From assembly GCF_002980495.1 (NCBI RefSeq), contig NZ_PVBR01000003.1:124001-188000 (forward strand): a DNA stretch of 64,000 bases. Reading direction: 5' to 3'. The DNA comes from Phyllobacterium phragmitis. Lineage in GTDB: Bacteria; Pseudomonadota; Alphaproteobacteria; Rhizobiales; Rhizobiaceae. Below, piece by piece: positions 3,525 to 21,128 of this stretch. The notes below the pieces were generated by a model. That model was not told where the DNA came from, searched no databases, and was given only the letters and a program-made list of their open reading frames with translations. How positions within the stretch are numbered: the stretch's first letter is position 1; each line of letters opens with the position of its first letter. Position numbers and translations under genes: made by a program.

Positions 3525-3549
3525 CGCCTGAAACCGGGTTCAACAGCCC

Positions 3550-3593
3550 GAGAACCCCGGAACAAGGATCGCAGGTTCATCCCTGCGGTTCTC
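3550..3593 (+). promoter_or_regulatory. Intercistronic stem-loop between binding protein and permease genes
   Basis: Outer stem GAGAACC (3550-3556)/GGTTCTC (3587-3593), inner stem CGCAGG (3570-3575)/CCTGCG (3582-3587). There is no T-run, so it is more likely an mRNA-stabilising element or weak attenuator than a full terminator. Confidence 0.4.
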
Positions 3594-3624
3594 CCGATCC
3601 GTTTCAGAGCGAGGCCTCTTGTCC

Positions 3625-4647
3625 ATGTCAGAATCCGTAGATACCGGCAGCCCGCCCGGCCAGAAAGAATCCGGTTTGCGCTATAAAGAGCGCTTTCCAT
3701 TGCTGGCGCTCATCGTCGAGCGGCTTTTGCTGAGCGCCGCGCTGCTTCTTGCCGTTTCCGTCCTTATCTTCGGTGGTGTCGAGGCACTGCCCGGCGACTT
3801 CGCCGAGACCTATCTCGGCCAGTCCGCGACACCGCAGGCCGTCGCCAATATCCGCAGCGATCTCGGCCTCGACCGGCCTGTCGTCACCCGTTATTTCGAA
3901 TGGCTCGGCAATGCCGTGCAGGGCGATTTCGGCACTTCATGGGCGAGCCGCAATTCGGTGAGCGAACAGATCGGCAAGCGGCTTGGAAACTCGCTGTTCC
4001 TTGCCTTTTGCGCGGCCATCATATCGGTGCCGCTGGCGGTGGGGCTCGGCATGCTCGCCGTCCATTTCCGCAACCGCATTCCCGACAAGATCATCAATGT
4101 GGTCTCGCTTGCCGCGATTTCGCTTCCGGAATTCTTCATCGGCTATCTTCTCATCCTGTTTTTCGCCGTCAAATTCGGCGTGGCGACCTTTCCCGCCACC
4201 GTTTATGACAGCATGACCTTCGTCGAGCGTCTGAAGGCCGTCGCGCTGCCCGTCGCAACGCTCGTCCTCGTGGTGCTTGCCCATATGATGCGCATGACGC
4301 GCGCCGCAATCCTCAGCGTCATGTCCTCGGCCTATATGGAAACGGCGGAACTGAAAGGCCTCGGCGCTTTCCGCTCCATCGTCCGCCATGCCGCGCCCAA
4401 TGCGCTGGCGCCGATCATCAATGTCGTGGCGCTCAATCTCGCCTATCTCGTCGTCGGTGTCGTGGTGGTCGAAGTCGTCTTCGTCTATCCCGGCATGGGT
4501 CAATATATGGTCGATGCGGTGACCGTGCGCGACATGCCCGTGGTGCAGGCCTGCGGCCTCATCTTCGCCGCCGTCTATATCCTTTTGAACATGCTGGCGG
4601 ATATCCTCGCGATTATCGCCAACCCACGGCTGAGGCACCCGCGATGA
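3625..4647 (+). CDS. ABC transporter permease, DppB/OppB type
   Basis: 340 residues from ATG 3625, preferred over TTG 3619 because GAGG at 3611-3614 is correctly spaced from the ATG. Membrane segments are clear, for example LLLSAALLLAVSVLIF near the start and VVGVVVVEVVFVYPGMG near the end. The EAA-type cytoplasmic loop reads METAELKGLGAFRSIVRHAAPNAL, the contact site for the ATPase. It forms the inner-membrane channel with the next permease. An N-terminal cytoplasmic tail of about 25 residues precedes the first helix. Its stop codon overlaps the next start (ATGA at 4644-4647), showing translational coupling. Confidence 0.92.
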   Translation: MSESVDTGSPPGQKESGLRYKERFPLLALIVERLLLSAALLLAVSVLIFGGVEALPGDFAETYLGQSATPQAVANIRSDLGLDRPVVTRYFEWLGNAVQGDFGTSWASRNSVSEQIGKRLGNSLFLAFCAAIISVPLAVGLGMLAVHFRNRIPDKIINVVSLAAISLPEFFIGYLLILFFAVKFGVATFPATVYDSMTFVERLKAVALPVATLVLVVLAHMMRMTRAAILSVMSSAYMETAELKGLGAFRSIVRHAAPNALAPIINVVALNLAYLVVGVVVVEVVFVYPGMGQYMVDAVTVRDMPVVQACGLIFAAVYILLNMLADILAIIANPRLRHPR

Positions 4648-5471
4648 GATTGCGCGACATCCCCTTCACGGCCTGGATCGGCATTGCAGGCATTCTGCTT
4701 GCTTTCTTCTGCGCCATCTTCGCGCCCTGGATCGCCCCTCACGGCGAAACGGAGATCGTCGGCAATGTCTGGCAACCGCCCGATGGACAGTTCGTCTTCG
4801 GCACAGACAATCTCGGCCGCGATATCCTGTCCCGGCTGATCTATGGAGCAAGAACGACGCTGCTCGTGGCGCTTGCCGCCACCATCATTTCCTTCTCGCT
4901 CGGCGTCATACTGAGCTTTACCGCGGCCACGTCACGCGGGCTGATCGATCAGGTCCTGTCGCGCTTCAACGATCTGATGATGTCGATCCCGACGCTCATC
5001 TTCGCGCTGGTCGTGCTCGCCGTCCTGCCGCAGAACCTCATCGTCCTGATCCTCGTCATGGCCATTCTCGATTCCACCCGCGTCTACCGGCTCGGACGAG
5101 CGGTCGCGCTCGATGTCGCGGTCATGGAATTCGTCGAGGCGGCAAAGCTGCGCGGCGAAGGCCGGCTATGGATCATCTTTCGCGAGATCCTGCCCAACAC
5201 GCTGTCGCCGCTTCTGGCCGAATTCGGCTTGCGCTTCGCCTTTTCGATCCTGTTTCTCTCCACCCTCTCCTTTCTCGGGCTCGGTATCCAGCCGCCGGCC
5301 GCCGACTGGGGCGGCATGGTCAAGGATAACAAGGATGGGATCATCTTCGGCATATCCGCCGCGCTGGTGCCGGGGGCGGCCATCGCCATCCTGGCCATTT
5401 GCGTCAACATGGTGGTGGACTGGCTTATGAAACGGACATCCTCTCTGAAAGGGGGACGCGGCGATGCATGA
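4644..5471 (+). CDS. ABC transporter permease, DppC/OppC type
   Basis: 275 residues. Typical DppC features: FGTDNLGRDILSRLIYGARTTL after the first helix, and the EAA loop VEAAKLRGEGRLWIIFREILPNTLSPLL. The C-terminal SFLGLGIQPPAADWGGMV is the family signature ahead of the last helix. It pairs with the DppB-type permease in the inner membrane. The start overlaps the upstream stop by four bases, and its own end overlaps the ATPase start by eight bases. Confidence 0.92.
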   Translation: MRLRDIPFTAWIGIAGILLAFFCAIFAPWIAPHGETEIVGNVWQPPDGQFVFGTDNLGRDILSRLIYGARTTLLVALAATIISFSLGVILSFTAATSRGLIDQVLSRFNDLMMSIPTLIFALVVLAVLPQNLIVLILVMAILDSTRVYRLGRAVALDVAVMEFVEAAKLRGEGRLWIIFREILPNTLSPLLAEFGLRFAFSILFLSTLSFLGLGIQPPAADWGGMVKDNKDGIIFGISAALVPGAAIAILAICVNMVVDWLMKRTSSLKGGRGDA

Positions 5472-7098
5472 ACCTCTTCTTTCGGTCCGCAATCTCAAGA
5501 TCGAGGCGAAAATCTACCCGCAAGGTGAGCCCCCCCGCGACATCACCATTCTGGAGGACGTGTCCTTCGACCTTGAAAAAGGCAAGGTGCTTGGGCTCAT
5601 CGGCGAATCCGGCGCGGGAAAATCGACCGTTGGCCTGAGCACGCTCGGCTATGGACGCGGCGGCATCCGCATCACCGGCGGCGAGGTGCTGTTGAACGGC
5701 CAGGACATACTGAAGCTTGGAAAGAGCGGCCTGAGATCGCTGCGCGGCGCCAAGGTCTGCTATGTCGCGCAATCGGCAGCCGCCGCGTTCAATCCGGCGC
5801 ATCGCCTCGGCGATCAGGTGATCGAGGCGAGCGTCGAACATGGCATCATGAGCCGCGAGAAAGCCAGCGAACGGGCGATCTATCTCTTTCGCGTCCTCGG
5901 CCTCCCCAACCCAGAAAGCTTCGGCGAGCGCTATCCGCACCAGGTCTCGGGCGGCCAACTCCAGCGGGCGATGACCGCCATGGCGCTTTGCCCCAACCCC
6001 GAGCTGATCGTTTTCGACGAGCCCACCACGGCTCTCGACGTGACGACCCAGATCGACGTTCTGGCGGCCATCAAACATGCGATCGAGGAAACCGGTGTCG
6101 CCGCTCTCTACATCACCCATGATCTGGCCGTGGTCGCGCAGGTTGCCGACGACATCATGGTGCTGCGCAACGGCAAAACCGTCGAATACGGCACCGCCAG
6201 GCAGATCATCGAGGCACCGAAGGAGGACTATACCAAGGCGCTCGTCGGCGTGCGCGAGATGCAGCATGAAGAAGCCGTCGACCAGAGCGAACCGCTTTTG
6301 AGGCTCGATAATATCAGCGCCGCCTATTCGAATATCATCCAGGTGCTGTTCGACGTTTCGATGCATCTGCCCAAGGGACAGACGCTTGCCATCGTCGGCG
6401 AATCCGGTTCGGGGAAGTCGACGCTCGCCCGCGTCATTACCGGACTGCTTCCGCCCAGCGCGGGAAATGTCGTCTTCGACGGCGAGGTTCTGCCGAAGGC
6501 GCTGGCGCAGCGCACACGCGAACATCTGCGCCGTATCCAGATGATCTACCAGATCGCCGATACCGCCATGAACCCACGGCAGACCGTGCGCGATATCATC
6601 GGTCGCCCGCTGACCTTCTATTACGGCATGCACGGGCGCAAGAAGACCGAGCGCGTTGCCGAACTACTCGAACAGATCGAGATGGACCCGCAATACCTCG
6701 ACCGCTATCCCGCCGAACTCTCCGGCGGACAGAAGCAGCGTGTCGCCATCGCCCGCGCACTGGCGGCAAAGCCGGATCTCATCCTTTGCGACGAACCGAC
6801 CTCGGCGCTCGATCCCCTGGTCGCCGAGGGCATTCTCAAGCTGCTCATGCGGCTTCAGGCGGAAACCGAAGTCTCCTATGTCTTCATCACCCATGACATC
6901 GCCATCGTTCGCGCCATCGCGGATTCGGTCGCCGTCATGCATCGCGGCAAACTCGTCCGGTTCGGGCCGAGGCATGTCGCCCTCTCGCCTCCCTTCGACG
7001 ACTATACCGACCTGCTCCTGCAATCGGTTCCCGAAATGCGGATCGGCTGGCTCGAACAGGTATTGAAAACCCGCCGCATGGAAAGTGCCGGCAATTAG
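5464..7098 (+). CDS. Fused double ATPase of peptide-type ABC transporter (DppD-DppF fusion)
   Basis: 544 residues with two complete nucleotide-binding domains. First: Walker A GESGAGKST at residues 47-55, signature VSGGQ, Walker B LIVFDEP and an H-loop ITHD. Second, from about residue 275: Walker A GESGSGKST, signature LSGGQKQR, Walker B LILCDEP and again ITHD. In most peptide importers these are two genes, dppD and dppF; the fusion is common in rhizobia. It powers the DppB/DppC-type pair encoded just upstream, with which it overlaps by eight bases. The second domain lacks an obvious oligopeptide C-terminal cysteine motif. Confidence 0.93.
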   Translation: MHEPLLSVRNLKIEAKIYPQGEPPRDITILEDVSFDLEKGKVLGLIGESGAGKSTVGLSTLGYGRGGIRITGGEVLLNGQDILKLGKSGLRSLRGAKVCYVAQSAAAAFNPAHRLGDQVIEASVEHGIMSREKASERAIYLFRVLGLPNPESFGERYPHQVSGGQLQRAMTAMALCPNPELIVFDEPTTALDVTTQIDVLAAIKHAIEETGVAALYITHDLAVVAQVADDIMVLRNGKTVEYGTARQIIEAPKEDYTKALVGVREMQHEEAVDQSEPLLRLDNISAAYSNIIQVLFDVSMHLPKGQTLAIVGESGSGKSTLARVITGLLPPSAGNVVFDGEVLPKALAQRTREHLRRIQMIYQIADTAMNPRQTVRDIIGRPLTFYYGMHGRKKTERVAELLEQIEMDPQYLDRYPAELSGGQKQRVAIARALAAKPDLILCDEPTSALDPLVAEGILKLLMRLQAETEVSYVFITHDIAIVRAIADSVAVMHRGKLVRFGPRHVALSPPFDDYTDLLLQSVPEMRIGWLEQVLKTRRMESAGN

Positions 7099-7165
7099 AG
7101 CGCGGCTCTTTCCCAGAACGTGCCTGAAACGGCATGCCCCTCCCCTATCTTCAGGACAAACAACC

Positions 7166-9163
7166 ATGGCGACACACCCATTCACCGTGATTGAAAACGA
7201 GTGGATCACCCTTGCCGACGGAACGAGACTTGCCGCCCGGATATGGATGCCCGAAGGCGCGGCGGCCGATCCGGTGCCCGCCGTACTGGAATATCTTCCC
7301 TATCGCAAACGTGACGGCACGTCTCCGCGCGATGAATCCACCTATCCCGTATTTGCCGCCGCCGGCATTGCCGGCGTTCGCGTCGATATTCGCGGCTCAG
7401 GCGAATCCGACGGCGTGATCGATGGCGAATATACGCCGCGCGAACTCGATGACGCCTGCCAGGTGATCGCCTGGATCGCCGCGCAGAAATGGTCGAACGG
7501 CTCCGTCGGAATGATGGGGATTTCCTGGGGCGGCTTCAATTGCCTGCAACTGGCGGCCCTGCGTCCGCCAGCGCTGAAGGCGGTCATTTCCATCGCCTCC
7601 TCCGTCGATCGCTATAATGACGACATCCATTACAAGAACGGCTGCCAGCTTTCCACGCAGTTGTCCTGGGCCGCGACGATGCTTGCATATCAGTCACGTC
7701 CGGCCGATCCGGCCCTTGTCGGCGAGGCCTGGCGCGAGCAATGGCTTGAGCGCCTCGAAGGCGAGCCCTTCTTCATGGAGGAGTGGCTGTCGCACCAGCG
7801 CCGCGACGCATTCTGGCAGCACGGGTCGATATGCGAGGATTTCTCCGCCGTTCAGATTCCGGCGTTGGTCATCGCCGGATGGGCCGACGGGTATCGCAAT
7901 ACGCCGCTGATGGCGGCAGAAGGTCTCGGCAGCCAGGCCAAAGTCATCCTGGGGCCATGGGTGCATAAATATCCGCACTTCGCCTGGCCGAAACCGCGCG
8001 CCGATTTCCACGGCGAAGCGATCCGCTGGTGGAACCGCTGGCTGCGCGGTGATGAGAACGGCGCAGAAGATCTGCCGCAGGTGCGCGCCTATATTCTCGA
8101 CGGGCCGCGCCCGGCGCTTCGACGGGACTTCGATCCGGGACGCTGGATCGCCAAGCCGGAATGGCACAAACCGGAGATGGAGGAACTCCACGTCTCGGTG
8201 GCAGGCATTCTTGATTTCGGTCCGCGGCGGGAAGGAGACGCGCGCGACGTTTTTCTCAAGTCACCGCTCGATCTGGGAACGACATCAGGCGAATACTTCA
8301 CCTTGAAGCCGGACGCCGAAATGGCGGGAGACCAGCGTGCCGACGATGCGCAATCCCTCGTCTTCGAAACCGAACCGCTGGCGCAGGCGCGCGATTATCT
8401 CGGCCGTCCCGTCCTCACGCTGGAAATTTCCTGTGACGGGGACTGGGCCAATCTTGCCGCGCGGCTCGTGGATATCCATCCCGATGGTACCGCAACCCGT
8501 GTCAGCTTTGGTGTGCTGAACCTTGCCCATCGCGACGGCAATGCCCAACCCAAGAAGATGCAAAAGGGCCAGAAAATCACGATCAAGCTGCTCCTCGATG
8601 CCTGTGGCTACCGGTTCGAGAAGGGCCATCGCATCCGCCTGGCGCTTTCCACCGCCTATTGGCCGATGATCCTTCCCTCCCCGGCCGATCCTGGCCTGAC
8701 GATCGATGGGGCAAGCCTTCAGCTCGATCTGCCGAAGCTTGGTGCGCATCGAGACCTCCACATGCCCGAGCCGGAGAATCCCGATCCGCTGCCAAGATAT
8801 ATCGACCATGAACCCGCCGGAACCCGCCGTTCGGTCGAACGCGATCTGGTCGCCGGGAAGACGCATTACCGCATCCATGAAGACACCGGGCTGTCGGAGC
8901 ATCCGCAAACCGGGCTTGCCACGCGCCAGATCCGCGACGAGGACTGGGCGATCGCGCCCGAGGATCCGCATTCCATGACCGGCCGATCGACCTGGACTTG
9001 CGAAATGAAGCGCGGCGACTGGTCGGTGCGCACGATATGCAGCGCCCACCTTGCCTGCACGAAGGACCATTGGCTGGTGAGCGCCCATGTGAAGGCCTAT
9101 GAGGGCGGAGCGCTGGTTTTCGAAAAGGAATATGAGAAGAAGGTCGCGCGCGATTTCATGTGA
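7166..9163 (+). CDS. CocE/NonD family hydrolase (X-Pro dipeptidyl-peptidase-like acyl hydrolase)
   Basis: 665 residues from ATG 7166, with AGGA at 7153-7156; a longer frame back to 7085 overlaps the ATPase gene and has no good ribosome site. The alpha/beta-hydrolase core has the nucleophile elbow GISWGG with Ser120, the acid region AGWADGYRN, and the histidine region GPWVHKYPH. A jelly-roll C-terminal domain follows (from about residue 340), as in CocE and glutaryl-7-ACA acylase relatives. No signal peptide, so it is cytoplasmic and probably cleaves the ligand brought in by the transporter. The substrate (peptide, ester or amide) is unknown. It closes the operon after a 67-base gap. Confidence 0.88.
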   Translation: MATHPFTVIENEWITLADGTRLAARIWMPEGAAADPVPAVLEYLPYRKRDGTSPRDESTYPVFAAAGIAGVRVDIRGSGESDGVIDGEYTPRELDDACQVIAWIAAQKWSNGSVGMMGISWGGFNCLQLAALRPPALKAVISIASSVDRYNDDIHYKNGCQLSTQLSWAATMLAYQSRPADPALVGEAWREQWLERLEGEPFFMEEWLSHQRRDAFWQHGSICEDFSAVQIPALVIAGWADGYRNTPLMAAEGLGSQAKVILGPWVHKYPHFAWPKPRADFHGEAIRWWNRWLRGDENGAEDLPQVRAYILDGPRPALRRDFDPGRWIAKPEWHKPEMEELHVSVAGILDFGPRREGDARDVFLKSPLDLGTTSGEYFTLKPDAEMAGDQRADDAQSLVFETEPLAQARDYLGRPVLTLEISCDGDWANLAARLVDIHPDGTATRVSFGVLNLAHRDGNAQPKKMQKGQKITIKLLLDACGYRFEKGHRIRLALSTAYWPMILPSPADPGLTIDGASLQLDLPKLGAHRDLHMPEPENPDPLPRYIDHEPAGTRRSVERDLVAGKTHYRIHEDTGLSEHPQTGLATRQIRDEDWAIAPEDPHSMTGRSTWTCEMKRGDWSVRTICSAHLACTKDHWLVSAHVKAYEGGALVFEKEYEKKVARDFM

Positions 9164-9354
9164 AGGATCAGGATCCGTTCATTGTGCCTTATGCGGATCG
9201 CTTCGCCTGCCTTCCCGCCTTATGATGCCTTTTTGCCGCCTCCTCACATTTGCGGCGGAACGCCTCGACTTCCGACGAGGGCAGGTGCTCGATGCCTATG
9301 AAGCTGTTGCAACATCCCGTTGACCGCCCCTTCACAAAACCTGTTCCCTGGATA

Positions 9355-9528
9355 TTGACAATGCGGTGAATATGGCTTATCTACAGGCCTCGATAGTTGT
9401 TTGCCGATATTTGTTTTTGCTGGCGCCTTGTGCGCTCACTTGACGAACTTCCCACTTCAATAATCGAGATAAAGTGGCCGCCGTGCGTCGTACGGTGGTA
9501 TAAGATGTTGCTATTGAAAGGGTTCGTT
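9355..9528 (+). promoter_or_regulatory. Sigma-70 promoter and long leader of the cold-shock gene
   Basis: TTGACA at 9355-9360 and TATCTA at 9378-9383 are separated by exactly 17 bases. Transcription should begin near 9390, which leaves an untranslated leader of about 140 bases before ATG 9529. Long leaders are a hallmark of cspA-type genes, where they act as temperature-sensing RNA. The stretch 9164-9354 upstream holds no gene or other signal that I can support. Confidence 0.65.
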
Positions 9529-9738
9529 ATGGCCACTGGCACAGTAAAATGGTTTAATTCCACAAAGGGCTTCGGCTTCATTCAGCCTGATAATGGCGGT
9601 CCGGACGTTTTCGTTCATATCTCCGCTGTCGAGCGCGCCGGAATGCGCGAACTCGTCGAAGGCCAGAAGATCGGCTTCGAGATGGAACGCGACAACAAGT
9701 CGGGCAAGATGTCCGCAGGTCAGCTTCAGGCTGCCTAA
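9529..9738 (+). CDS. Cold-shock protein, CspA family
   Basis: 69 residues, normal for the family. It has the two RNA-binding motifs: KGFGFI near residue 16 and VFVHIS near residue 31, within a five-strand beta barrel. It binds single-stranded RNA and DNA and melts mRNA structure. Start chosen at ATG 9529 ([16 protein letters not shown]), because the family begins there; the frame upstream is open but lies in the leader. A perfect terminator follows at 9801-9826. The next gene is a DUF6481 gene, a frequent neighbour of csp genes in this order. Confidence 0.95.
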
Positions 9739-9800
9739 CTGTATTTGACCTCGCCATGACCACGGATGTACTGGCATGCTGCAGAGGTGAATTCCAGAAA

Positions 9801-9826
9801 AGGCCAGGCAATCGCCTGGCCTTTTT
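9801..9826 (+). terminator. Rho-independent terminator of the cold-shock gene
   Basis: Perfect 9-bp stem AGGCCAGGC (9801-9809)/GCCTGGCCT (9814-9822), loop AATC, then a T-run. A-run just before the stem makes it potentially bidirectional. Confidence 0.9.
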
Positions 9827-9890
9827 GCATGCCGGGAATGCTTCCCATAATGCTTGATATGAAATCTGTAACGACAAGGACGACGCTGGA

Positions 9891-10271
9891 TTGAGACGTG
9901 TAACAGATAATGGCTTCGCTGAACGCCGCAAAGCGGCCGCCGAGGCCAAACAACAGCTCCTGAAGAAGTTCGAGACCGCACCGAAGCCCACCGATCCGGA
10001 AGTACTGGCAAAACGGGAAGAGCGGATGGCTATATCCGCCGCGCGTGAAGCACGACGTGCCGAACGCGAGCGATTGAAGCAGGAAGAACAAGATCGCCAG
10101 CTTGCCGAGGCCGCAGCCTTGGCTGAAGCGGCAGATGCCGAGGCGAAAGCCCAGGCGGAGGCGCAGCAAGCCGAGATGAAAGAACGCATCGCACGCGTCG
10201 TTGCGGATGATGCAGAGCGGAAGGCCGAGCGCGATCGTCGATATGCCGCCCGTAAGGCCCGGCAGCGCTGA
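9891..10271 (+). CDS. DUF6481 family protein, highly charged coiled coil
   Basis: 126 residues. Start is TTG 9891 with AAGGA about ten bases upstream; no nearby ATG gives the conserved N-terminus. The opening GFAERRKAAAEAKQQLLKKF matches the conserved block of DUF6481, after which the chain is almost entirely Ala, Glu, Lys, Arg and Gln (about residues 40-126), predicting one long helix or coiled coil. No signal peptide or membrane segment. These proteins are found in alphaproteobacteria, often beside csp genes; the function is unknown, and an RNA-related role is only a guess from context. Confidence 0.75.
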   Translation: MRRVTDNGFAERRKAAAEAKQQLLKKFETAPKPTDPEVLAKREERMAISAAREARRAERERLKQEEQDRQLAEAAALAEAADAEAKAQAEAQQAEMKERIARVVADDAERKAERDRRYAARKARQR

Positions 10272-10366
10272 ACCGAAGACCGGACGAAGCCCGAAGATTA
10301 CAGCGGGATCGACCAGCCTGAAGGCAGCCCCGGGCCGCCTTCAGTATTCGCGGGATTTCGGTGGGC

Positions 10367-10924
10367 TCAGTTTTGCGGTTCAACCTGCTCGGCCCAGCTC
10401 TTCGCCCCGCTTTTCCCGTCCAGGAAAGACCGCACGGTCCTGGCCACCTCAGGCGCCATGAAAACCTCGTAATGCGTCAGGTCCGGAAGGATAGCCAGCC
10501 GGTTCTGCGACATGTGCTCACGCATCCAGCCAGCATCCTTCAGTCCGCCGCCGAGCAATTGGTAGAATTCGACAATGTGTTCGGGGCGAAACATATCGCT
10601 GTCGCCATAGACGAGCATGACCGGCATGGTGAGCTTCTTCACGTCCGCCGACCAGTCATAGGGCCTGCGCATAAAATCGCCCATCCGGTCGAGCAGCGTC
10701 GGGAATTCCTCCGGGTTCGGCGCGATTGCCGCATATGACTGATACATCGGCGTATCCTTCATGATATCCGCCATGCCCGCATTCACTTGCGCCTGCATCG
10801 GCAGCATCTCGGGATAGAACCCGTTTTGCGCAAAGCCGCCCGAAACCAGCGCCAACCGGCGCACCATATCGGGATGCTGCATTGCACCGGAAACATTGCT
10901 GCTATGCACTATTGTGCATTCCAT
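10367..10924 (-). pseudogene. Alpha/beta hydrolase, 5'-truncated
   Basis: The minus-strand frame carries the C-terminal half of an alpha/beta hydrolase: QHPDMVRRLALVSGGFAQNGFYPEML, the acid region MPVMLVYGDSDMFRPEH, and the His region LPDLTHYEVF. Homology begins only at about 10879; the fifteen codons before it do not look like the family, and the nucleophile elbow GxSxG, normally 10-15 residues upstream of QHPD, is missing. A full enzyme would need roughly 100 more N-terminal residues. So this is a broken gene. The break lies just beside the sRNA locus at 10985. Confidence 0.65.
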
Positions 10925-10984
10925 TCCCCGCGAAATGAATTAGTATCACCTTAGAAGATAGAGCTTCGTAAGGGTTTACCTCCG

Positions 10985-11081
10985 CCCAAACCCAAGCGAT
11001 TGAGGCTGGCACTCCTCCTCCCAGTCAGCCTTAACCTAACGACACCCGCCGCACCTCCTCCCGCGGCGGGTGTTGTTTTTT
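10985..11081 (+). ncRNA. Cuckoo-type (CCUCCUCCC-loop, alpha-r14-like) small RNA, copy 1
   Basis: Two hairpins, both with an anti-Shine-Dalgarno loop. Hairpin 1: stem 11000-11008/11026-11034 (nine pairs, one G-U) with loop containing TCCTCCTCCCA. Hairpin 2: perfect 11-bp stem ACACCCGCCGC (11042-11052)/GCGGCGGGTGT (11063-11073) with loop ACCTCCTCCC, followed by a T-run to 11081, which makes it the terminator. This two-hairpin, twin CUCCUCCC-loop design defines the cuckoo RNA family of alphaproteobacteria (CcsR RNAs of Rhodobacter, alpha-r14 of rhizobia). The 5' end is a guess; family members are often processed from a longer transcript. No DUF1127 gene, the usual upstream partner, is present here. 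Confidence 0.8.
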
Positions 11082-11244
11082 CGGCTTGGGAATCCGTCTC
11101 CCCTATATGTTTGGCCCGCTTCCATCCCGGTCAGATCACGATTCCCGCACATTGCGCTTATATGCTCGCGGATACTTTGCCGTTGTTGATCGTATGAACA
11201 GCACCGCAGAATAAATCTGCGCTCCGGAAATGAAACTCTCCCGG

Positions 11245-11335
11245 AAAACGAAAATGACCCGCTGCGGGAGGAGGTGCAGCGGGTCAGATCTTTGAACACG
11301 GCAGGGAGGAGAGCGCCATGTTCAGTATTGAGTTC
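11245..11335 (-). ncRNA. Cuckoo-type small RNA, copy 2, convergent with copy 1
   Basis: On the minus strand: hairpin 1 with stem GAACATGGC/GCCGTGTTC (plus coordinates 11315-11323 and 11294-11302, one G-T wobble) and loop GCTCTCCTCCCT; hairpin 2 with perfect 10-bp stem GACCCGCTGC/GCAGCGGGTC (11276-11285 and 11256-11265), loop ACCTCCTCCC, then a T-rich tail ATTTTCGTTTT at 11255-11245. Same architecture as copy 1 but different stems, so a paralogue rather than a recent duplication. The 3' ends of the two RNAs face each other across about 160 bases that contain no gene. Confidence 0.78.
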
Positions 11336-11593
11336 AGGGGAGGAGCCAAAGCATTGAACTCAATGATTCGGTTATATCACACGCGCAAATAAAAACAGAA
11401 GCAATTATGCAAATGACGGTTATCAGAACGTTTCTTTCCGGTATTTCTATAAATACAAATCGATAAATACATCCCGTAAAAGTAAGCCATCTTGTATCAT
11501 TTTGCGTGTATTCTATATCGGCTCCTAATTTGATGGAATCGCCTAGCCTTACGTCATCCTGCACCGTCGGAATTGTGGAGATGGTGAGGGGAC

Positions 11594-11748
11594 TCCTGTG
11601 ACAAGCACAGGCCCGGGCACAGGAATGACGGTAGATTGACTGTTGGCAGCTAATTGCAGACGTTTTCGCCCGCAGAACGGTTGTTTATAGGGGCGAAAGC
11701 ATCTCCACTTCCGTCATTCCTGTGCCCGGGCCTGTGCTTGTCACAGGA
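11594..11748. repeat. Pair of 38-bp REP-like palindromes in inverted orientation
   Basis: Arm 11594-11631 and arm 11711-11748 are perfect reverse complements over 38 bases, separated by 79 bases. Each arm itself contains two short palindromes, CCTGTGACAAGCACAGG and CCTGTGCCCGGGCACAGG. This is the form of a BIME-type repetitive extragenic element. The surrounding stretch 11346-11984 is AT-rich at first and holds no gene I can support. Confidence 0.85.
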
Positions 11749-11984
11749 ATCCTGTGTCACCGATGCCGCTGTTGCTACGGTTGGAATAGGGTGTTTGCCA
11801 CCGTCAAGATTGAGGAACGCCTGAACGCATCGTTTCCGTCTGAAAGTGAAAGGCACTATTGCTAAGCTTTATGAAGACAATTTCAAGAAACCCGGCCGAG
11901 ATCAGCGGAACGGGCCATAGAGAATTCATCGCCAGCATTCGCTGTCGCGGCGACAACAGCACCGTCAACGGCAACCATCGATGT

Positions 11985-13937
11985 TCAGGTGGCGTGAGAT
12001 CCCTGCGTGCTGATGACGGCGTCCGCTTCCTTGCCGTACAATTCCTCGAAATGATCGAAGGCCTTTGAAAAATAGCCGATGCCCTGCGTGGCTGAGCGAA
12101 GCGAGCGCGCCAGCTCGTCCAGCGCACTGCCGGAAACAAGAGCCCGAAAGATATCCCAACCCTTTACCGTTTCATTCCGGTCAAAGCCGAGAACCTGGCC
12201 TTTGAGGGCTGAAACGATCGGCACGAGGCTGCCGGAGTAGATGGAGGGGATGTGAATTTCAATCCGGAACATCGGCTGCATCAGCACGGCTGAAGCCTGG
12301 GAAAGCGCCTGCCGCACACCCATCTTTGCCGCCGCCCGGAAAGCGAATTCCGAACTGTCGACGGAATGATGCTGACCGTCGGTCAGTGTCACGCCGACAT
12401 CCATAACCCTGAAACCCAGGGGACCTTTTTCCATCGCCTCGCGGGCTCCCGTCTCGACGGCTGGTATGTAGTTTCGCGGAACTGCTCCGCCTTTGACGGT
12501 TTTGCCAAAGCTGAAATCTTCACCACGCCCGTTGGGACGGACGCTCAGCTTCACATCGGCGAATTGACCGGCTCCGCCGGTTTGCTTGCGATGACGATAA
12601 TGGATTTCGGCCGTTTTTGTGATCGTCTCCCGGTAAATCGCACTGGGCGCTTTATCGGACACACCGACGTGAAAGACCTCGGACAACATCTTGCAGATAT
12701 CGCGCAAATGCACCGGTCCCTGAACGCAGACCAGGTGCGCACCGGTCTCTTCTTCCTGCATGACGCGCAGACCGCGATCCGTTTCGGCGAGCTTTGCCAA
12801 CATTCCTGAAAGCTTGGTCTCGTCGCGTTCGCTGGCAGGCACGAGAATTCTTTCGAGCATCGGCGGCGGTGGTGCGGTCCATTGTGGCGGCGTCACGGCA
12901 GCATCGGCGGCGAGCAGGGACGGAACGGGCAAATGATCCGACTTGACTGCAGCGACGACATCTCCGGCCGCGGCCGCCGCGGAAACGGGCCGACCGGTTA
13001 CCGGATCCTGCACGGAGCCCAATCCCAAGCCACCCAGTGTGGATCCTTGTTTGAGCCCATCCGCCAGAGCACGGACGAGAACTGTCTTGCCGACGCTCGG
13101 GCGATGATAGGCGTGAAAGCTGACGCCAGCCAAAGCGGCCTCGTCAATATTACTGGAAGCGGCAAGGCGCTTTCGCAGCGCGATGACGGGCGGGGCTTCA
13201 TGACGAAGCGCTTTCATCAATCGCAGCATGCCATTGCCATGGCTTGCCGCGCCGACGAGAACCGGGATGATCTTGTTTTCCCGAAGGACCCGCGAGGCGA
13301 TGGCATAGACAGCGTCGCTCGCCGGTTCGCGGTCTTCAACGAGTTCCTCCAGCAGCCAGTCATCGAAATCCGAGAGCTGTTCCAGGAGTTCGGCGCGTGC
13401 CTCGCGTTCGCGTTCCGCGACGTTTTCCGGCATCTCGACCAGCGACGACGGCTGACCTTCGCGATAACGCCAGGCACGCTCCGATATCAGATCGCAGCTG
13501 CCGATGATCCTGTCGCCTTCGCGGATCGGAACCTGCCGGAGAAGCAAAGTGTGGCTGGAATAGTCCTGAAGCGCGGCGATGACGTCTCTCAGCCGCCCTC
13601 TCGGCTCATCCATCCGGTTTACGAACAGGATGCAGGGCGTTCCCGAGGCTTCGATCGCCCGTAAATGCGGTGCGGCCAGAACGGCCTCGTCCGGCGCGGA
13701 AGAAACACACAGGATACAGGCATCGCTGGCCAAAAGCGCGTCCTGTATATGCGCCAGAGCCTCGTTGGGTCCCGGTGCATCCAGCGCGCACCATGCCTCG
13801 TTTCCGAATTCGAACTCCGTCACACCGACGCCATATGGAGAGACGGATTTCTTCGGCACACCTTCCAGCGAGCCCAGTTTTTCCACGAGCGTGGATTTTC
13901 CGGTCTGTGACGGTCCAAGGACTGTAAAGCAACGCAT
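11985..13937 (-). CDS. Elongation factor G-like translational GTPase, divergent paralogue
   Basis: 650 residues against about 700 for housekeeping EF-G. P-loop GPSQTGKS at residues 8-15. The G3 motif reads DAPGPNEA where EF-G has DTPGH: the catalytic histidine is replaced by proline. G4 is NRMD. Domains II to V follow, with the domain IV segment HYRHRKQTGGAGQFADVKL and the domain V region MFRIEIHIPSIYSGSLVPIVSALKGQVLG. This matches the EF-G-like proteins of alphaproteobacteria that lie apart from the str operon. It is probably a ribosome-associated factor rather than the main translocase. No neighbour hints at its role. Confidence 0.85.
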   Translation of the reverse strand: MRCFTVLGPSQTGKSTLVEKLGSLEGVPKKSVSPYGVGVTEFEFGNEAWCALDAPGPNEALAHIQDALLASDACILCVSSAPDEAVLAAPHLRAIEASGTPCILFVNRMDEPRGRLRDVIAALQDYSSHTLLLRQVPIREGDRIIGSCDLISERAWRYREGQPSSLVEMPENVAEREREARAELLEQLSDFDDWLLEELVEDREPASDAVYAIASRVLRENKIIPVLVGAASHGNGMLRLMKALRHEAPPVIALRKRLAASSNIDEAALAGVSFHAYHRPSVGKTVLVRALADGLKQGSTLGGLGLGSVQDPVTGRPVSAAAAAGDVVAAVKSDHLPVPSLLAADAAVTPPQWTAPPPPMLERILVPASERDETKLSGMLAKLAETDRGLRVMQEEETGAHLVCVQGPVHLRDICKMLSEVFHVGVSDKAPSAIYRETITKTAEIHYRHRKQTGGAGQFADVKLSVRPNGRGEDFSFGKTVKGGAVPRNYIPAVETGAREAMEKGPLGFRVMDVGVTLTDGQHHSVDSSEFAFRAAAKMGVRQALSQASAVLMQPMFRIEIHIPSIYSGSLVPIVSALKGQVLGFDRNETVKGWDIFRALVSGSALDELARSLRSATQGIGYFSKAFDHFEELYGKEADAVISTQGSHAT

Positions 13938-14164
13938 CGGCCATCCTCCCTGCCATGATCATGGATTTCCACCGTCAGGATGCCCCCATCTGGCCCGAAG
14001 CGCCAGAGACGGACGATTTTTCTTGATCACGTCATTTTTCACGGGCGCGGGATTTGGCGGACCTCCTAAAAGTTTTTACCCCTCATAATTGGGAGGTACC
14101 AGCGTTGTTGAGCTTGTGTTATTTTATACTCTTCCGCGATGATTTCGTTAGCATTGGGGGCGTT

Positions 14165-14380
14165 ATGGCTGATCAGACCTATCCAAAGCAGCAATATTCC
14201 GTCGAATATTTCGCAAAAAAACATCGCATAACGCCATTGCAAGCGGAAATGATCCTCCGCCGCGCCGGCGGATCGAGAGCAGCCGCCAACGAAGAAGCGA
14301 TCAAGTTCAAGACCGCTTTGCGACTGCCTTTCCGTATCGATGGCCGCTCGCACGAACGCCGCCCATCTCAGTCACGATGA
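14165..14380 (+). CDS. Small DUF3606-like protein
   Basis: 71 residues from ATG 14165, which follows a GGGGG run at a suitable distance; a longer frame to 14054 lacks family-like sequence. The core QYSVEYFAKKHRITPLQAEMILRRAGGSRAAANEEA resembles the short DUF3606 helix-turn pattern common in rhizobia. Highly basic tail (SHERRPSQSR). No signal peptide. TATACT at 14125-14130 is a plausible -10 box. Family assignment is tentative and the function is unknown. Confidence 0.6.
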   Translation: MADQTYPKQQYSVEYFAKKHRITPLQAEMILRRAGGSRAAANEEAIKFKTALRLPFRIDGRSHERRPSQSR

Positions 14381-14458
14381 AGGAGCGGCTTCATAACGAT
14401 GGAATGATCGAACCGATCCCGTCGCCGTCACCGTTATCTCCCGCATTGTGAGCCGTGA

Positions 14459-15370
14459 CTATGCCGCCAATGGTTCGAAAATCAGCGCCTGATGCAATTG
14501 GGCGCCAGCGATAACACCATCCGCAGAAGCAAGGGTCGCGTTGTGCGCAGGACGCGCAATATCGCCGGCCGCGTAGACACCCGGCACCGATGTCATCTTG
14601 GCGGCATCGGTGTGGATGACCGCTCCGAACGGTCCATCATCGAATGCACAGCCAAGCCGTTCGGCGATCGGGCTAGCCATGGTGGTCCGTGATCCGATGT
14701 AGAGGGCGGAAATTTCCACCAGGCGCCCATCGGCGAGACGGACACCCGCAAGATCGGGCGCATGCCCCTCAAGCCGTGCGATCGGACCGGCCTCTATCGT
14801 AACGTTTCGCTGTTCGAGCTTTCTTAATGTCGCGTCATCCGGCATTGGGGCTCCGTTGAGGAAGAATGTCGTGTCTCCCCAATCCGGAATGAGCAGAGCC
14901 TGGTGGGTCGACATCGGCACGACATTCAGTACGCCGAGCCTCTGCCCCTTGAATTCATAGCCGTGACAATAGGGACAATGGAGGACGGTTACCCCCCAAC
15001 GCTCCTTGAGACCTGGAATTTCTTCGGGAAGCCCGTCGATCAACCCGAAGGCCAGGATGAGCTTGTGCGCCCAAAGCTCTTCTCCCGACGCCAATTTCAC
15101 CACAAAACCGGAACCGTCCGCTCGCGCATCGCTCGCCACCCCGTCAACAAAGCTGACGCTGGGATAGGCCGCGACCTTGGCGCGCGCCTGTGCGATCATC
15201 TCGCGCGGCGGCACACCGTCCTGCCCGAAGAACCCATGCGATGCCGCGGCAAAGCGGTTCCGCGGCTGACCCGCATCAACGACACATACCGACCTGCCGG
15301 CACGTGCAAGCTGCATAGCGGCCGACAGGCCGGCGAAACTCCCGCCGATAATAACAGCATCATGCCACAT
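14459..15370 (-). CDS. NAD(P)/FAD-dependent oxidoreductase, thioredoxin reductase-like
   Basis: 303 residues, the length of low-molecular-weight thioredoxin reductases. FAD-binding motif [12 protein letters not shown] at residues 9-20; a redox-active pair CPYC at residues 132-135 in [10 protein letters not shown], in place of the usual CATCDG; C-terminal FAD motif [10 protein letters not shown]. The central NAD(P) domain is less canonical ([13 protein letters not shown]), lacking a clear GxGxxA, so the electron donor is uncertain. It overlaps the upstream Rrf2 regulator gene by 11 bases and is surely in one transcript with it, which suggests a redox or electrophile response. Confidence 0.85.
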
Positions 15371-15821
15371 GGGTTTGCTCCTTCAGACTTTGGCCGTGTT
15401 CAAGAAGACGCTTTCTGAAATCCTGCGCCAGCGCGGCAAGCGTCACATCGTGCAGGCGCGCTATAAGGATGGCTTCGGCCTCGCGGAACGCATTGTCGAG
15501 CGCCGCATTCACCGCCTGCTCGACAAGGCAGCCGGGGCTTTCCATGCGATGCCCCATGGCGAGAATGGTCGGAGCGCCAACGGCGCGATAGATATCGGCG
15601 AGCGTAATGGCGGATGGATCACAGGCGATCGTCCAGCCGCCGCCATGCCCCTTTTCCGATTTCACGAATCCCTCATCGCGCAAGCCGGCCATGATGCGGC
15701 GGATCACGACGGGATTTGTCGTCATCAGCTTCGCCAATTGCTCGGATGTCGCGGGCTTTTCCATCCCGACCATGTGCATGAGGACGTGCAGCACGCCCGA
15801 TAATCTGCTATCTCTTTTCAT
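15360..15821 (-). CDS. Rrf2 family transcriptional repressor
   Basis: 153 residues. Winged helix in residues 1-80 with [41 protein letters not shown], the Rrf2 recognition helix and wing. The three clustered cysteines that hold an Fe-S cluster in IscR/NsrR are absent; only isolated Cys in IACDP and SPGCLVEQ are seen, so it is of the YwnA-like, cluster-free kind and may sense oxidants or electrophiles by thiols. The start ATG (15821-15819) sits inside a palindromic operator and directly at the predicted transcription start, so the mRNA is probably leaderless. It likely represses itself and the overlapping reductase gene. Confidence 0.88.
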
Positions 15822-15857
15822 GCAACACTATATGTTGCAAGAGAGCCTGAAAGTCAA
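15821..15857 (-). promoter_or_regulatory. Promoter and autoregulatory operator of the Rrf2/reductase operon
   Basis: Minus strand: -35 TTGACT (15857-15852), 17-base spacer, -10 CATATA (15834-15829). The predicted start of transcription falls on the ATG of the regulator gene. A perfect 7-5-7 inverted repeat, TGCAACActataTGTTGCA (15821-15839), covers the -10 box and the start codon; it is the likely repressor site. Confidence 0.7.
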
Positions 15858-15940
15858 GCCGGGAGTGCAATGCGATAATTGGAGTATTTATTCTTGTTGC
15901 ACCGCAAAAATGACATTACTCTCGTATCAGCTTTGATATG

Positions 15941-15967
15941 CAGCGCCAGCTATCCCATCTGGCGCTG
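15941..15967 (+). other. Hairpin upstream of the pyruvyltransferase gene
   Basis: Perfect 9-bp inverted repeat CAGCGCCAG (15941-15949)/CTGGCGCTG (15959-15967), no T-run. It lies between the divergent Rrf2 and pyruvyltransferase genes and could be a leader structure or an operator. Confidence 0.35.
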
Positions 15968-16041
15968 GACTAGCCTGACCATTCGCCCGAGTTGAGGCGA
16001 TCCGTCTCCTGCTCAAATCAGTCCTTGAGGGTGAAGCTTTC

Positions 16042-17424
16042 GTGAAAATCATCGTTGAAAACACCGTCTGCCTGAATACCGGGGATGCAGCCATTCTCCT
16101 GGCAATCAGGCACATTTTGAGATCGACATGGGGAGAAAATCTGCGTTTTCTGGTCTTCGACAGCCAACCCGCTGTGGCCGCAAGGCTTTATCCCGATAAA
16201 GACTACCCGGATATCGAGTTCCACAAGCTCCTCTCGGAATCCGTCTTCAAATACAGATACGACGATAATTTTCTGAAGAATGCTCTCAAGCCGCCTTACA
16301 ATCGCGTCGCATTGCAGGCCCTGCGCCATTTCGGCAGGAGCCGCCATATCGACGAAACAATCTTCAGCGCAGACGCCCGTCGCGGCCTCGCCATGTACAG
16401 GGAGGCCGATCTGGTCGTCACGACGGGCGGGACCTATCTCGTAGAGACATATAATCTCGAGAAGCGGCTCAATCAGTTTCGCATCGATGCCATCCTCGGC
16501 AAGGATCCGGTCTTCTTCACCCAGTCTCTTGGCCCGTTCAACAAGAGCTATAATCGTGATGAGCTGAAGCCTATTCTCGATCGCAGTCCGCTGATCCTGC
16601 TTCGCGATGCCCGTTCGTTGGGGCACATTCGCGATCTCGTGGACGATCCGGAGAAATGTCACGTGGTGGCGGATGCCGTCTTCGCGCTCGCCGACACGGA
16701 CAGGATTTCGGGTATCCTCGCCTCCAAAAAGCCGGCGGCCACGACAGGCCGCGTCGCCATTTCCGTTCGGCACTGGAACTATGTCAAGGGCGGGGGCGGT
16801 GGCATGGACCGCTACATCGATTCCATCCGCAAGATCGTAACTGCGCTTGTCCGCGAACACGCCAAGGAGGTGACCTTCATCTCCACCTGCCAGGGCGTTC
16901 CCGAATACGCGCATGACGATTCCAAGACGGCACGGGCGATCGTCGCGGGGCTCGACCCCGATGTCGCCAGGCATATCAAGGTGGACGCGTCCTTTCACAC
17001 GCCTGAGCAACTGATGACGCTCGTCAGGGATTTCGATTTCGTCGTCGCCACGCGCATGCACATGATGATCATGTCGCTTTGCGTTGGCACGCCGGTGCTC
17101 CCCATCGCCTATGAGTTCAAGACGAGGGAACTCGCCAAACGCATCGGTGTCTCGGACGTACTGCTCGACATCGATACCATTACAGCCGAAGAAGCCAGCG
17201 AGAAGCTCAATGCCTTCATCGGCAATCTCGAGCATTATCGCAGCCAAAGCCTCCAGGCGGTGCTGCAGGAATACGCTTCGGCAATGTCGGTGACGGAACT
17301 CCTCAGGCCGCTTCTCACCGCCCCATCAGCGGATGGCGCTGGTGACCTTGGACAAGACGGCGGACAGGGCCTTGCGCGGTTGCGGGAAGAGAAGGACCAG
17401 GATCAGCGCGATCGCGTAGTTTAG
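16042..17424 (+). CDS. Polysaccharide pyruvyl transferase family protein
   Basis: 460 residues from GTG 16042 (GAGG at 16027-16030). Family features: N-terminal NTGDAAILLAI, VVTTGGTYLVETYN, QSLGPFN, and the C-terminal RDFDFVVATRMHMMIMSLCVGTPVLPIAYEFKT, the conserved histidine-containing block of CsaB/WcaK-type enzymes. It probably adds a ketal pyruvate to a sugar of the exopolysaccharide made by the neighbouring genes. The last 33 codons overlap the flippase gene on the other strand by 99 bases; this tail is low-complexity and probably not functional sequence. Confidence 0.85.
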   Translation: MKIIVENTVCLNTGDAAILLAIRHILRSTWGENLRFLVFDSQPAVAARLYPDKDYPDIEFHKLLSESVFKYRYDDNFLKNALKPPYNRVALQALRHFGRSRHIDETIFSADARRGLAMYREADLVVTTGGTYLVETYNLEKRLNQFRIDAILGKDPVFFTQSLGPFNKSYNRDELKPILDRSPLILLRDARSLGHIRDLVDDPEKCHVVADAVFALADTDRISGILASKKPAATTGRVAISVRHWNYVKGGGGGMDRYIDSIRKIVTALVREHAKEVTFISTCQGVPEYAHDDSKTARAIVAGLDPDVARHIKVDASFHTPEQLMTLVRDFDFVVATRMHMMIMSLCVGTPVLPIAYEFKTRELAKRIGVSDVLLDIDTITAEEASEKLNAFIGNLEHYRSQSLQAVLQEYASAMSVTELLRPLLTAPSADGAGDLGQDGGQGLARLREEKDQDQRDRVV

Positions 17425-18786
17425 AACGACCGCCAGGGCGACGGCGACAATGTCCGAGTGCGCGGTCAGCGATCCGGGCAGAAGACGATACGTGGCCCAG
17501 GCGAGCAGTGCCGATGCGATGAAAAGGCCCTGTATCATGAGAAAATCGGCGGCGGATACCGGACCGACGCGCTGCATGAGAACGGCAAGAACCGGCACCC
17601 GCAACACATAGCCGCTGATCGCATAGGCCGCAGCCACGCCGACGGCGCCCCATTGCAGGCCGACGGCAAAGGCCAGAACCGTCGTCAGCGAGGAGTATAT
17701 ACCCCAGCGAAACATTGTTTTCGTCCGGCCCTGGCAGATGAATATCCAGCCTGTCGTACTCGAAATGGGCTGGATGAGGCCTGCGAGCCCCAGCCATGCG
17801 AAGATCGGCGCGACGGGCAGCCATCGCTGCCCAAAGAGAATACCGATAACCTGCTCGGAGGTCAGGGTCAGCGCCGCAATTCCCGGTATGGTGACGGCCG
17901 CAAGAAGCCAGTTGGTCCGCATGTAGATATCGCGGAACCGCGCCTTGTCGTCCTGGACACGGCTCAACAGCGGGATCATGACCCGCGTCAACGGCTGGTT
18001 GATGTTTTGCAGGGGGAATAGCAAAAGCTTGTAAGCCCGGTCGTAATAGCCAAGCTCGACGGCGCCCGAGAACTTGCCGATCAGGATGTTGTCGAGATTG
18101 CGGGAAAAGAAGTTGACGATGTTGAAGCCCGTCAGATTGGCGCCGAACGATATTATATCGGAATCGATTCCGAAGACTGGCCGGTCCGGTTTCCACTTGG
18201 CTGCTCGCCAGGCTGCAACGAGCGCCACGATCGCGGAGACCGCCGGTCCAATGACCAGCGACCAATAGCCCAATCCCGCATAGGCCGCGGCGATGACAGC
18301 CAGAAGTCCTGCCACCGCCGTTATGACGTCGTTGACCGCCAATTGCCCGAACTGAAGCTGCCGGTTCATCAGCGCGAATGGCAACGCCGCCAGGCTGCCG
18401 AAGAAAAGCGGCAGGCCTGCTGCAATGGTGATCCCCGTCATGCGCATGTCGCCATAAAATGCCGCGACCGCCGGAGCAAGCGCTGCAACGATCACCGTGC
18501 TGCAAAGGCCGACAAGTGCGCTGATCCAGAAAACCTGATTGAGTTGCCTTTGATCGATCGCCTTGCGTTGAATGACCGCTTGCTGCAGCCCGAGGTTCTG
18601 AAAGAGCCCGACAAATGCCACGATCGGGCCCACGGATGCGATGAGACCGAAATCTTCCGGCGCCAGCAGGCGGGCCAGAATGATGACGGAGAGGAACTGC
18701 AAGCCCATCTTGATGGCTTGCGCACCCGCTGTAACGATCCCGCCGCGAACGGCAATCCGACCGAACTGAGCCGGCTCCGCGTTCAC
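17326..18786 (-). CDS. Lipopolysaccharide/exopolysaccharide flippase, Wzx/RfbX (MATE-like PST) family
   Basis: 486 residues with about 12 to 14 hydrophobic helices across the whole length. Family start: GIVTAGAQAIKMGLQFLSVIILARLLAPEDFGLIA, then NLDNILIGKFSGAVELGYYDRAYKLLLFPLQNI, the classic Wzx central motif. It moves lipid-linked repeat units across the inner membrane. It is the last gene of a minus-strand operon and overlaps the upstream glycosyltransferase gene by four bases; its 3' end overlaps the convergent pyruvyltransferase gene. Confidence 0.92.
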   Translation of the reverse strand: MNAEPAQFGRIAVRGGIVTAGAQAIKMGLQFLSVIILARLLAPEDFGLIASVGPIVAFVGLFQNLGLQQAVIQRKAIDQRQLNQVFWISALVGLCSTVIVAALAPAVAAFYGDMRMTGITIAAGLPLFFGSLAALPFALMNRQLQFGQLAVNDVITAVAGLLAVIAAAYAGLGYWSLVIGPAVSAIVALVAAWRAAKWKPDRPVFGIDSDIISFGANLTGFNIVNFFSRNLDNILIGKFSGAVELGYYDRAYKLLLFPLQNINQPLTRVMIPLLSRVQDDKARFRDIYMRTNWLLAAVTIPGIAALTLTSEQVIGILFGQRWLPVAPIFAWLGLAGLIQPISSTTGWIFICQGRTKTMFRWGIYSSLTTVLAFAVGLQWGAVGVAAAYAISGYVLRVPVLAVLMQRVGPVSAADFLMIQGLFIASALLAWATYRLLPGSLTAHSDIVAVALAVVLNYAIALILVLLFPQPRKALSAVLSKVTSAIR

Positions 18787-19964: not shown

Positions 19965-20019
19965 AATCTAGTGTTCTTCCGGTTTCCGAATATTTGCGGC
20001 GGTTTATCGTTACGCCCCA

Positions 20020-21099: not shown

Positions 21100-21128
21100 G
21101 GATGTGGTTCCTCGTTTTTCCGGCGTCT

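Follow-up and report, generated by a model that had tools for sequence, protein, structure and literature searches.

A conserved facing pair of ar14 small RNAs in Phyllobacterium phragmitis and its relatives

The analysed window, a 64-kb stretch of the Phyllobacterium phragmitis genome, carries two small RNAs of the Rfam family ar14 (NfeR1 type), which lie on opposite strands of one intergenic region with their 3' ends toward each other. We suggest that they are convergent, trans-acting RNAs, each with its own promoter, which serve as Shine–Dalgarno-pairing repressors under different control; the probability of this reading is, in our estimate, about 0.8. The ar14 family is already known, and what sets this pair apart is the uncommon but conserved facing arrangement, which looks special to the genus. 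No convergent ar14 pair was found in a limited search, covering titles and the beginnings of abstracts, of the literature on cuckoo RNAs, NfeR1/ar14, DUF1127 and convergent anti-Shine–Dalgarno RNAs.

Exactly two Rfam matches occur in the window, both to ar14 (RF02344): copy 1 (c1) at 10961-11078 on the plus strand (96.4 bits, E 1.9e-16) and copy 2 (c2) at 11250-11368 on the minus strand (73.4 bits, E 2.4e-11). Both exceed the gathering score of the model (58.8 bits), and c1 and c2 are real members of the family; the covariance-model search which the preliminary description of this DNA had proposed as its own check returned a match for each unit. The folds are far more stable than those of shuffled sequences (z of -7.24 for c1 and -7.01 for c2; for neither RNA did any of 200 shuffles do equally well). 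The RNAs, their hairpins and their loops are arranged as follows.

10961 to 11082, plus strand: c1, an ar14 small RNA of three hairpins with a run of T after the third (RF02344 score, fold z, six-member genus clade)
10966 to 10999, 11000 to 11034 and 11038 to 11077, plus strand: hairpins 1, 2 and 3 of c1 (folding)
10978 to 10987, plus strand: loop 1 of c1, ACCTCCGCCC, the anti-Shine–Dalgarno motif with one substitution (fold, alignment)
11011 to 11023, plus strand: loop 2 of c1, containing CCTCCTCCC (fold, motif count)
11053 to 11062, plus strand: loop 3 of c1, ACCTCCTCCC (fold, motif count)
11246 to 11368, minus strand: c2, an ar14 small RNA with three hairpins and a T-rich end (RF02344 score, fold z, six-member genus clade)
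11364 to 11327, 11324 to 11293 and 11286 to 11255, minus strand: hairpins 1, 2 and 3 of c2 (folding)
11338 to 11345, minus strand: loop 1 of c2, anti-Shine–Dalgarno motif (fold, motif count)
11304 to 11311, minus strand: loop 2 of c2, anti-Shine–Dalgarno motif (fold, motif count)
11266 to 11273, minus strand: loop 3 of c2, anti-Shine–Dalgarno motif (fold, motif count)

The preliminary description had recognised two distinct units on opposite strands, facing 3' to 3', with CTCCTCCC in their loops and T-rich ends, and the Rfam matches and the folds agree with it. It had assigned two hairpins to each unit, where folding gives three in c1 and three in c2: its span, 10985-11335, begins within hairpin 1 of c1 and truncates hairpin 1 of c2, and the last two hairpins of each RNA were what had been seen. 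As a whole, its observation was sound and the family broadly right, while the hairpin number was wrong and the history that it proposed was mistaken.

Exact CTCCTCCC occurs seven times in the window, five of them inside 331 bases at c1 and c2, against an expectation of 2.25 for the whole window; seven was reached by one of 100 shuffles. When the loops were tested for CCUCCUCCC, c1 showed CCTCCTCCC in two of its three loops and CCTCCGCCC in loop 1, and c2 showed CTCCTCCC in all three, with the full 9-mer in one. In the window, loop 1 of c1 has ACCTCCGCCC, which differs by a single base from the ACCTCCTCCC present in all five relatives; the alignment of the genus copies also reveals one degraded loop in the c2 of G005, and two pairs of the c2 consensus fold extend into loop 1. 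Covariation is slight, with a two-sided change at one pair of 35 in c1 and at one of 32 in c2. A terminator scan, which permits loops of 3-8 bases only, found none in the c1/c2 region, where the loops have 10 bases.

The facing arrangement was followed in six genomes of the genus (a query for up to 100 returned six): the window's own (G000) and five relatives, presumably Phyllobacterium leguminum (G001), Mesorhizobium sp. RMAD-H1 (G002), Paramesorhizobium deserti (G003), “Brucella endophytica” (G004) and Phyllobacterium salinisoli (G005). The ar14 search covered 61 genomes, these six and 55 others, and gave a match in 45 (39 of them outside the genus). Neighbour counts rest on the 150 ar14 matches listed out of a larger number, obtained with stricter search filters by which weak matches are lost; among these matches, neighbours within 5 kb are tandem in 30 cases, divergent in one and convergent in six. 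The six convergent pairs among the matches listed fall one to each genus genome, and these listed matches show the convergent layout in none of the 55 non-genus genomes. The sole divergent pair among the matches listed lies elsewhere, at L053 (G021:C6:84335-85162), with its members 590 bases apart.

Nine of the ten orthologues in the five relatives score above the RF02344 gathering score, and the tenth, c2 of G005, reaches 52.5 bits. A model derived from c2, applied to a sample of 199 genomes of the family, gave 136-146 bits for the three genus members in that sample and at most 73.3 bits elsewhere; in plasmid records c2 had no match and c1 two partial ones. Since the pair is convergent in all six genomes, c1 and c2 each form one clade and the high scores of the c2 model in the sample fall to genus members, the simplest reading is that the facing pair was already present in their common ancestor. 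A recent birth of the pair was rejected on the ground of the same layout.

The distance between c1 and c2 varies (171, 58, 276, 1959, 55 and 1934 bases in G000 to G005, respectively). The constant 3'-to-3' order and the merely 58 and 55 bases left between the RNAs in G001 and G004 would suit an action in cis, in which convergent transcription, read-through or antisense pairing links the expression of c1 to that of c2. Yet in the two genomes with the widest spacing, G003 and G005, two genes, for an AraC-type regulator and a short-chain dehydrogenase, intervene, so neither proximity nor cis interaction is required, and we consider such a linkage unlikely.

The two RNAs are not sister copies; to judge by identities and the tree, they come from different lineages. 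Identity is 83-84% between c1 and dA_G005b, one of the DUF1127-linked copies, from G005, and 73% between c2 and L118, a stand-alone copy from G021, against 62-64% between c1 and c2, which rejects a local inverted duplication as the origin of the pair. In the tree, built without L127 and the w2 and w3 rows and with L016 and L142 being the same locus, the six genus copies of c1 form one clade (support 100/97) and those of c2 another (100/99). c2 groups with six other-genus copies lacking an upstream DUF1127 signature (96/84), and c1 groups with a DUF1127-linked copy at 97/70, below the threshold for a sure branch; the bootstrap had not converged and 41 of 78 inner branches are unresolved. The stems differ, as the preliminary description stated in calling the units diverged paralogues, but their origin is to be sought in separate lineages and not in duplication on the spot.

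The genome of the window holds six ar14 matches above the cut-off: a DUF1127-adjoining tandem pair and a single copy, c1, c2, and a weaker copy near a tRNA gene; three of the copies outside the window sit just behind DUF1127 genes. A seventh, weak match (G000:C2, 33 bits) was rejected, being an ar15/AbcR RNA. DUF1127 (PF06568) has no match on the contig that carries c1 and c2, and all five matches in the genome lie elsewhere, which bears out the earlier statement that the partner gene is absent.

Degeneration of the pair must also be weighed. One loop of c1 is mutated, c2 scores below four of the five other above-cut-off copies of its genome, and in S. meliloti, according to the accessible part of PMC7143759, only one of six NfeR1-like copies was reliably detected on Northern blots; c1 and c2 may by this account be decaying, functionless relics. 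However, both RNAs remain paired and folded in six genomes while their neighbours vary, and we regard decay as improbable.

The neighbourhood of the pair is the variable part of the locus, and two features mark the side of c1.

10367 to 10924, minus strand: 3' fragment of an alpha/beta-hydrolase-like gene (match to longer frames of relatives)
10871 to 10921, plus strand: conserved block upstream of c1, a putative promoter/operator (aligns in five of five relatives though the flanking gene differs)

Compared with longer open reading frames of G012 and G016, the fragment shows homology from residue 14 onward, immediately after the GYSFGG stretch of those frames; its N-terminal part is therefore missing, and the broken hydrolase gene previously reported next to copy 1 is real. 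The fragment has no Pfam or NCBIfam match, and the label “hydrolase” is our assumption, based on the sequence of the relatives. Its junction falls at the boundary of the conserved c1 upstream block, and it occupies the place of an amino-acid permease gene which in G001-G004 ends directly upstream of c1 on the same strand (PF13520, matched by the protein of G003). The window's genome and G005 also carry the permease gene on the same contig as the pair, but 93 and 78 kb off, respectively. In G001 (15 kb compared) and G004 (9 kb, near a contig end) only the two RNA regions align with window positions 2001-22000, so the pair stands there in other surroundings. These data show that the pair and its upstream regions are steadier than the neighbouring genes.

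It was supposed at first that the locus had been recently rearranged, leaving orphan RNAs under new control. The broken hydrolase at the junction, the location of the permease gene elsewhere in the window's genome and the presence of a repeated inverted repeat close by all speak for this, and the break itself is real and local. However, the facing pair is present in all six genus genomes and so existed before the local rearrangement to which the hydrolase fragment is due; the block upstream of c1 is conserved; and 40 of 50 sampled non-genus copies likewise lack a DUF1127 signature within 200 bases upstream. A freshly rearranged locus, already weakened as an explanation by the age of the pair, is in our opinion very unlikely. 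The position of the permease gene in G001-G004 raises another possibility, namely that c1 is released by cleavage within the 3' UTR of the permease mRNA, in the way that CcsR RNAs are cut from the ccaF1 transcript; but c1 and its upstream block were kept in the two genomes where the permease lies far away, which makes this origin highly improbable.

Other elements surround the pair. The AraC-type regulator and short-chain dehydrogenase genes between c1 and c2 were seen at 7172-8955 of L039 (G003) and 7005-8783 of L041 (G005). In the window, a cold-shock-like gene (recognised by eye) and then a DUF6481 gene occupy 9397-10271, a stretch that aligns beside the pair in three relatives, and an elongation-factor-G-like protein (NF009379 above cut-off) is encoded at 11985-13937 on the minus strand. 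A 45-nt inverted repeat (11590-11634 and 11708-11752, 96% complementary) belongs to a genome-wide repeat family: the 186-base stretch holding it has 69 genome matches including itself, some overlapping on both strands, and one copy of the repeat is near a DUF1127-linked ar14 copy on contig C1.

Upstream of the RNAs, the following elements were recognised.

10883 to 10905, plus strand: LsrB-like box TGCA-N6-ACAT-T-GCTGC-TAT upstream of c1, one change from GCAT-N3-TG-N3-T (pattern search)
10904 to 10919, no strand assigned: palindrome ATGCAC-TATT-GTGCAT adjoining the LsrB-like box (by eye; mostly conserved in relatives)
11369 to 11432, minus strand: upstream region of c2 (in three of five relatives the alignment extends to its far end)

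A scan for the sigma-70 consensus gave no promoter in the c1/c2 region, and c1 has no clear -35/-10 elements; before c2, a CTTC...N17-18...TATA core can be seen by eye. The six genus genomes together contain 21 occurrences of the composite motif TGCAN6RCATNGCTGC, with 1-5 in each, against none in any of the six for the reversed pattern. The motif stands at c1 in all six and, among the 15 other loci, before ar15/AbcR at four, including in the window's own genome. The c1 block, with up to two changes, was found in three of 61 family genomes, two of them in the genus, and the third, G065, has no ar14 match there; a pattern scan of genome contigs for the block gave 18 records, five being genus members with the c1 ar14 match and 13 having no above-gathering match.

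Previously, LsrB was reported to activate both AbcR1 and NfeR1, with GCAT-N3-TG-N3-T as the proposed consensus (PMC8844928, in the part available), and excerpts of PMC10746234 describe a TGCA-N6-GCAT motif in the NfeR1 promoter; a stand-alone ar14 gene with its own promoter is known in NfeR1 (PMC10746234 and PMC7143759, likewise in part). In our set, in which 22 rows were picked for similarity to c2 or for score, DUF1127 linkage was called from a crude protein motif sought in the bases upstream (c1_G001, misflagged, was counted as c1), some of the 40 unlinked rows are second copies of tandems and the shuffles preserve single-base content only, the perfect consensus lies upstream of 10 of the 40 copies that have no DUF1127 signature nearby (mean of 0.12 in shuffles). 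With at most one change allowed, it lies upstream of 22 of the 40 (shuffled mean 2.9) and of none of the 19 DUF1127-linked copies. A one-change box is present at c1 in six of six genus genomes and at c2 in one of six; in the c1 box the first G is replaced by A in all six, and the position of the box relative to the model start is -67 to -69, nine of the ten perfect stand-alone boxes being about ten bases nearer (-56 to -58). Since the one-change motif is found at c1 in every genus genome and the composite motif both at c1 and before AbcR, control of c1 by LsrB may be proposed as a good guess. A box of the same kind as that reported for AbcR1 and NfeR1 does not favour the “new control” once imagined for these RNAs. 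It is possible, though doubtful, that RNA bodies and control regions were swapped in the ancestor of the genus, whereby an RNA of the DUF1127 lineage came behind an LsrB-type stand-alone block (c1) and an RNA of the stand-alone lineage lost its box (c2), giving two controls over one shared action.

Comparison with known systems places c1 and c2 closest to their own family. Like ar14/NfeR1 (SmelC397, Smr14C2), they have three hairpins, loops resembling the CCUCCUCCC type, variable stems, multiple copies per genome and a putative LsrB-type motif before stand-alone genes; unlike it, two copies face each other here, c2 has no conserved LsrB-like box, and pairing with ntrB is unsupported by a simple estimate. 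With CcsR1-4 of Rhodobacter sphaeroides (the cuckoo group, CIN1 locus) they share the anti-Shine–Dalgarno loops, but c1 and c2 have three hairpins, are convergent and lie on a contig without a DUF1127 gene. We take RS0680a-d to be the same RNAs as CcsR1-4. The four CcsR RNAs are described as co-transcribed with a DUF1127 gene (PMC10253847, in part), and the available text of PMC3927594 gives RS0680a two hairpins and proposes one wider family for it and the three-hairpin NfeR1-like RNAs. The initial assignment to a cuckoo/alpha-r14 design therefore held for ar14 membership and failed for the CIN1 traits, namely co-location with DUF1127, same-strand tandem order and two stem-loops. AbcR1/2 (ar15, RF02345) are also anti-Shine–Dalgarno repressors, and the LsrB-like box is common to c1 and AbcR in the window's genome; they are, however, a separate RNA family that binds Hfq in S. 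meliloti (PMC8844928, in the part available).

According to the accessible text of PMC10746234, NfeR1 is an Hfq-independent repressor of translation that acts at Shine–Dalgarno sequences, its redundant loops pairing with the translation start region to silence mRNAs. By analogy with NfeR1 of Sinorhizobium meliloti, whose anatomy they share, repression of translation through Shine–Dalgarno pairing is the most likely action of c1 and c2. Each RNA would be made from its own promoter and end at its third hairpin, and the loops would pair with GGAGG-type Shine–Dalgarno sequences of many mRNAs, blocking their translation. c1 would probably be switched by LsrB, a regulator of the LysR type, along with AbcR, and c2 would be under another promoter with no conserved LsrB-like box, the pair thereby representing two differently controlled inputs into one shared repression mechanism. 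A fixed pair with distinct bodies and upstream regions, alongside DUF1127-linked copies in the same genome, is well suited to asking why such genomes keep many near-redundant anti-Shine–Dalgarno RNAs, since its members can be compared with the other copies for the time of their action and for the mRNAs that they target.

As regards targets, the published pairing of NfeR1 with ntrB is unsupported in this genus by a simple duplex estimate, the loop duplex energy being -6.0 in all six genomes against a median of -8.0 for 50 open reading frames of the window. The pattern GGGAGGAGG-N3-10-ATG occurs 15 times in the genome, against three for the reversed control, and few of 13 among the matches listed resemble gene starts. 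The trehalose-synthesis gene otsA (TIGR02400 above cut-off; L084 100-1503, minus strand, G000:C4) has the leader GGGAGGAGGT, a ten-base full complement of the ar14 loop. This sequence lies upstream of the otsA start in three of the six genomes (G000, G005 and G002, in the last about 20 bases from the start used), differs by one change in G003 and is weak in G001 and G004; otsA may be taken as a lead only to a target of the ar14 loops.
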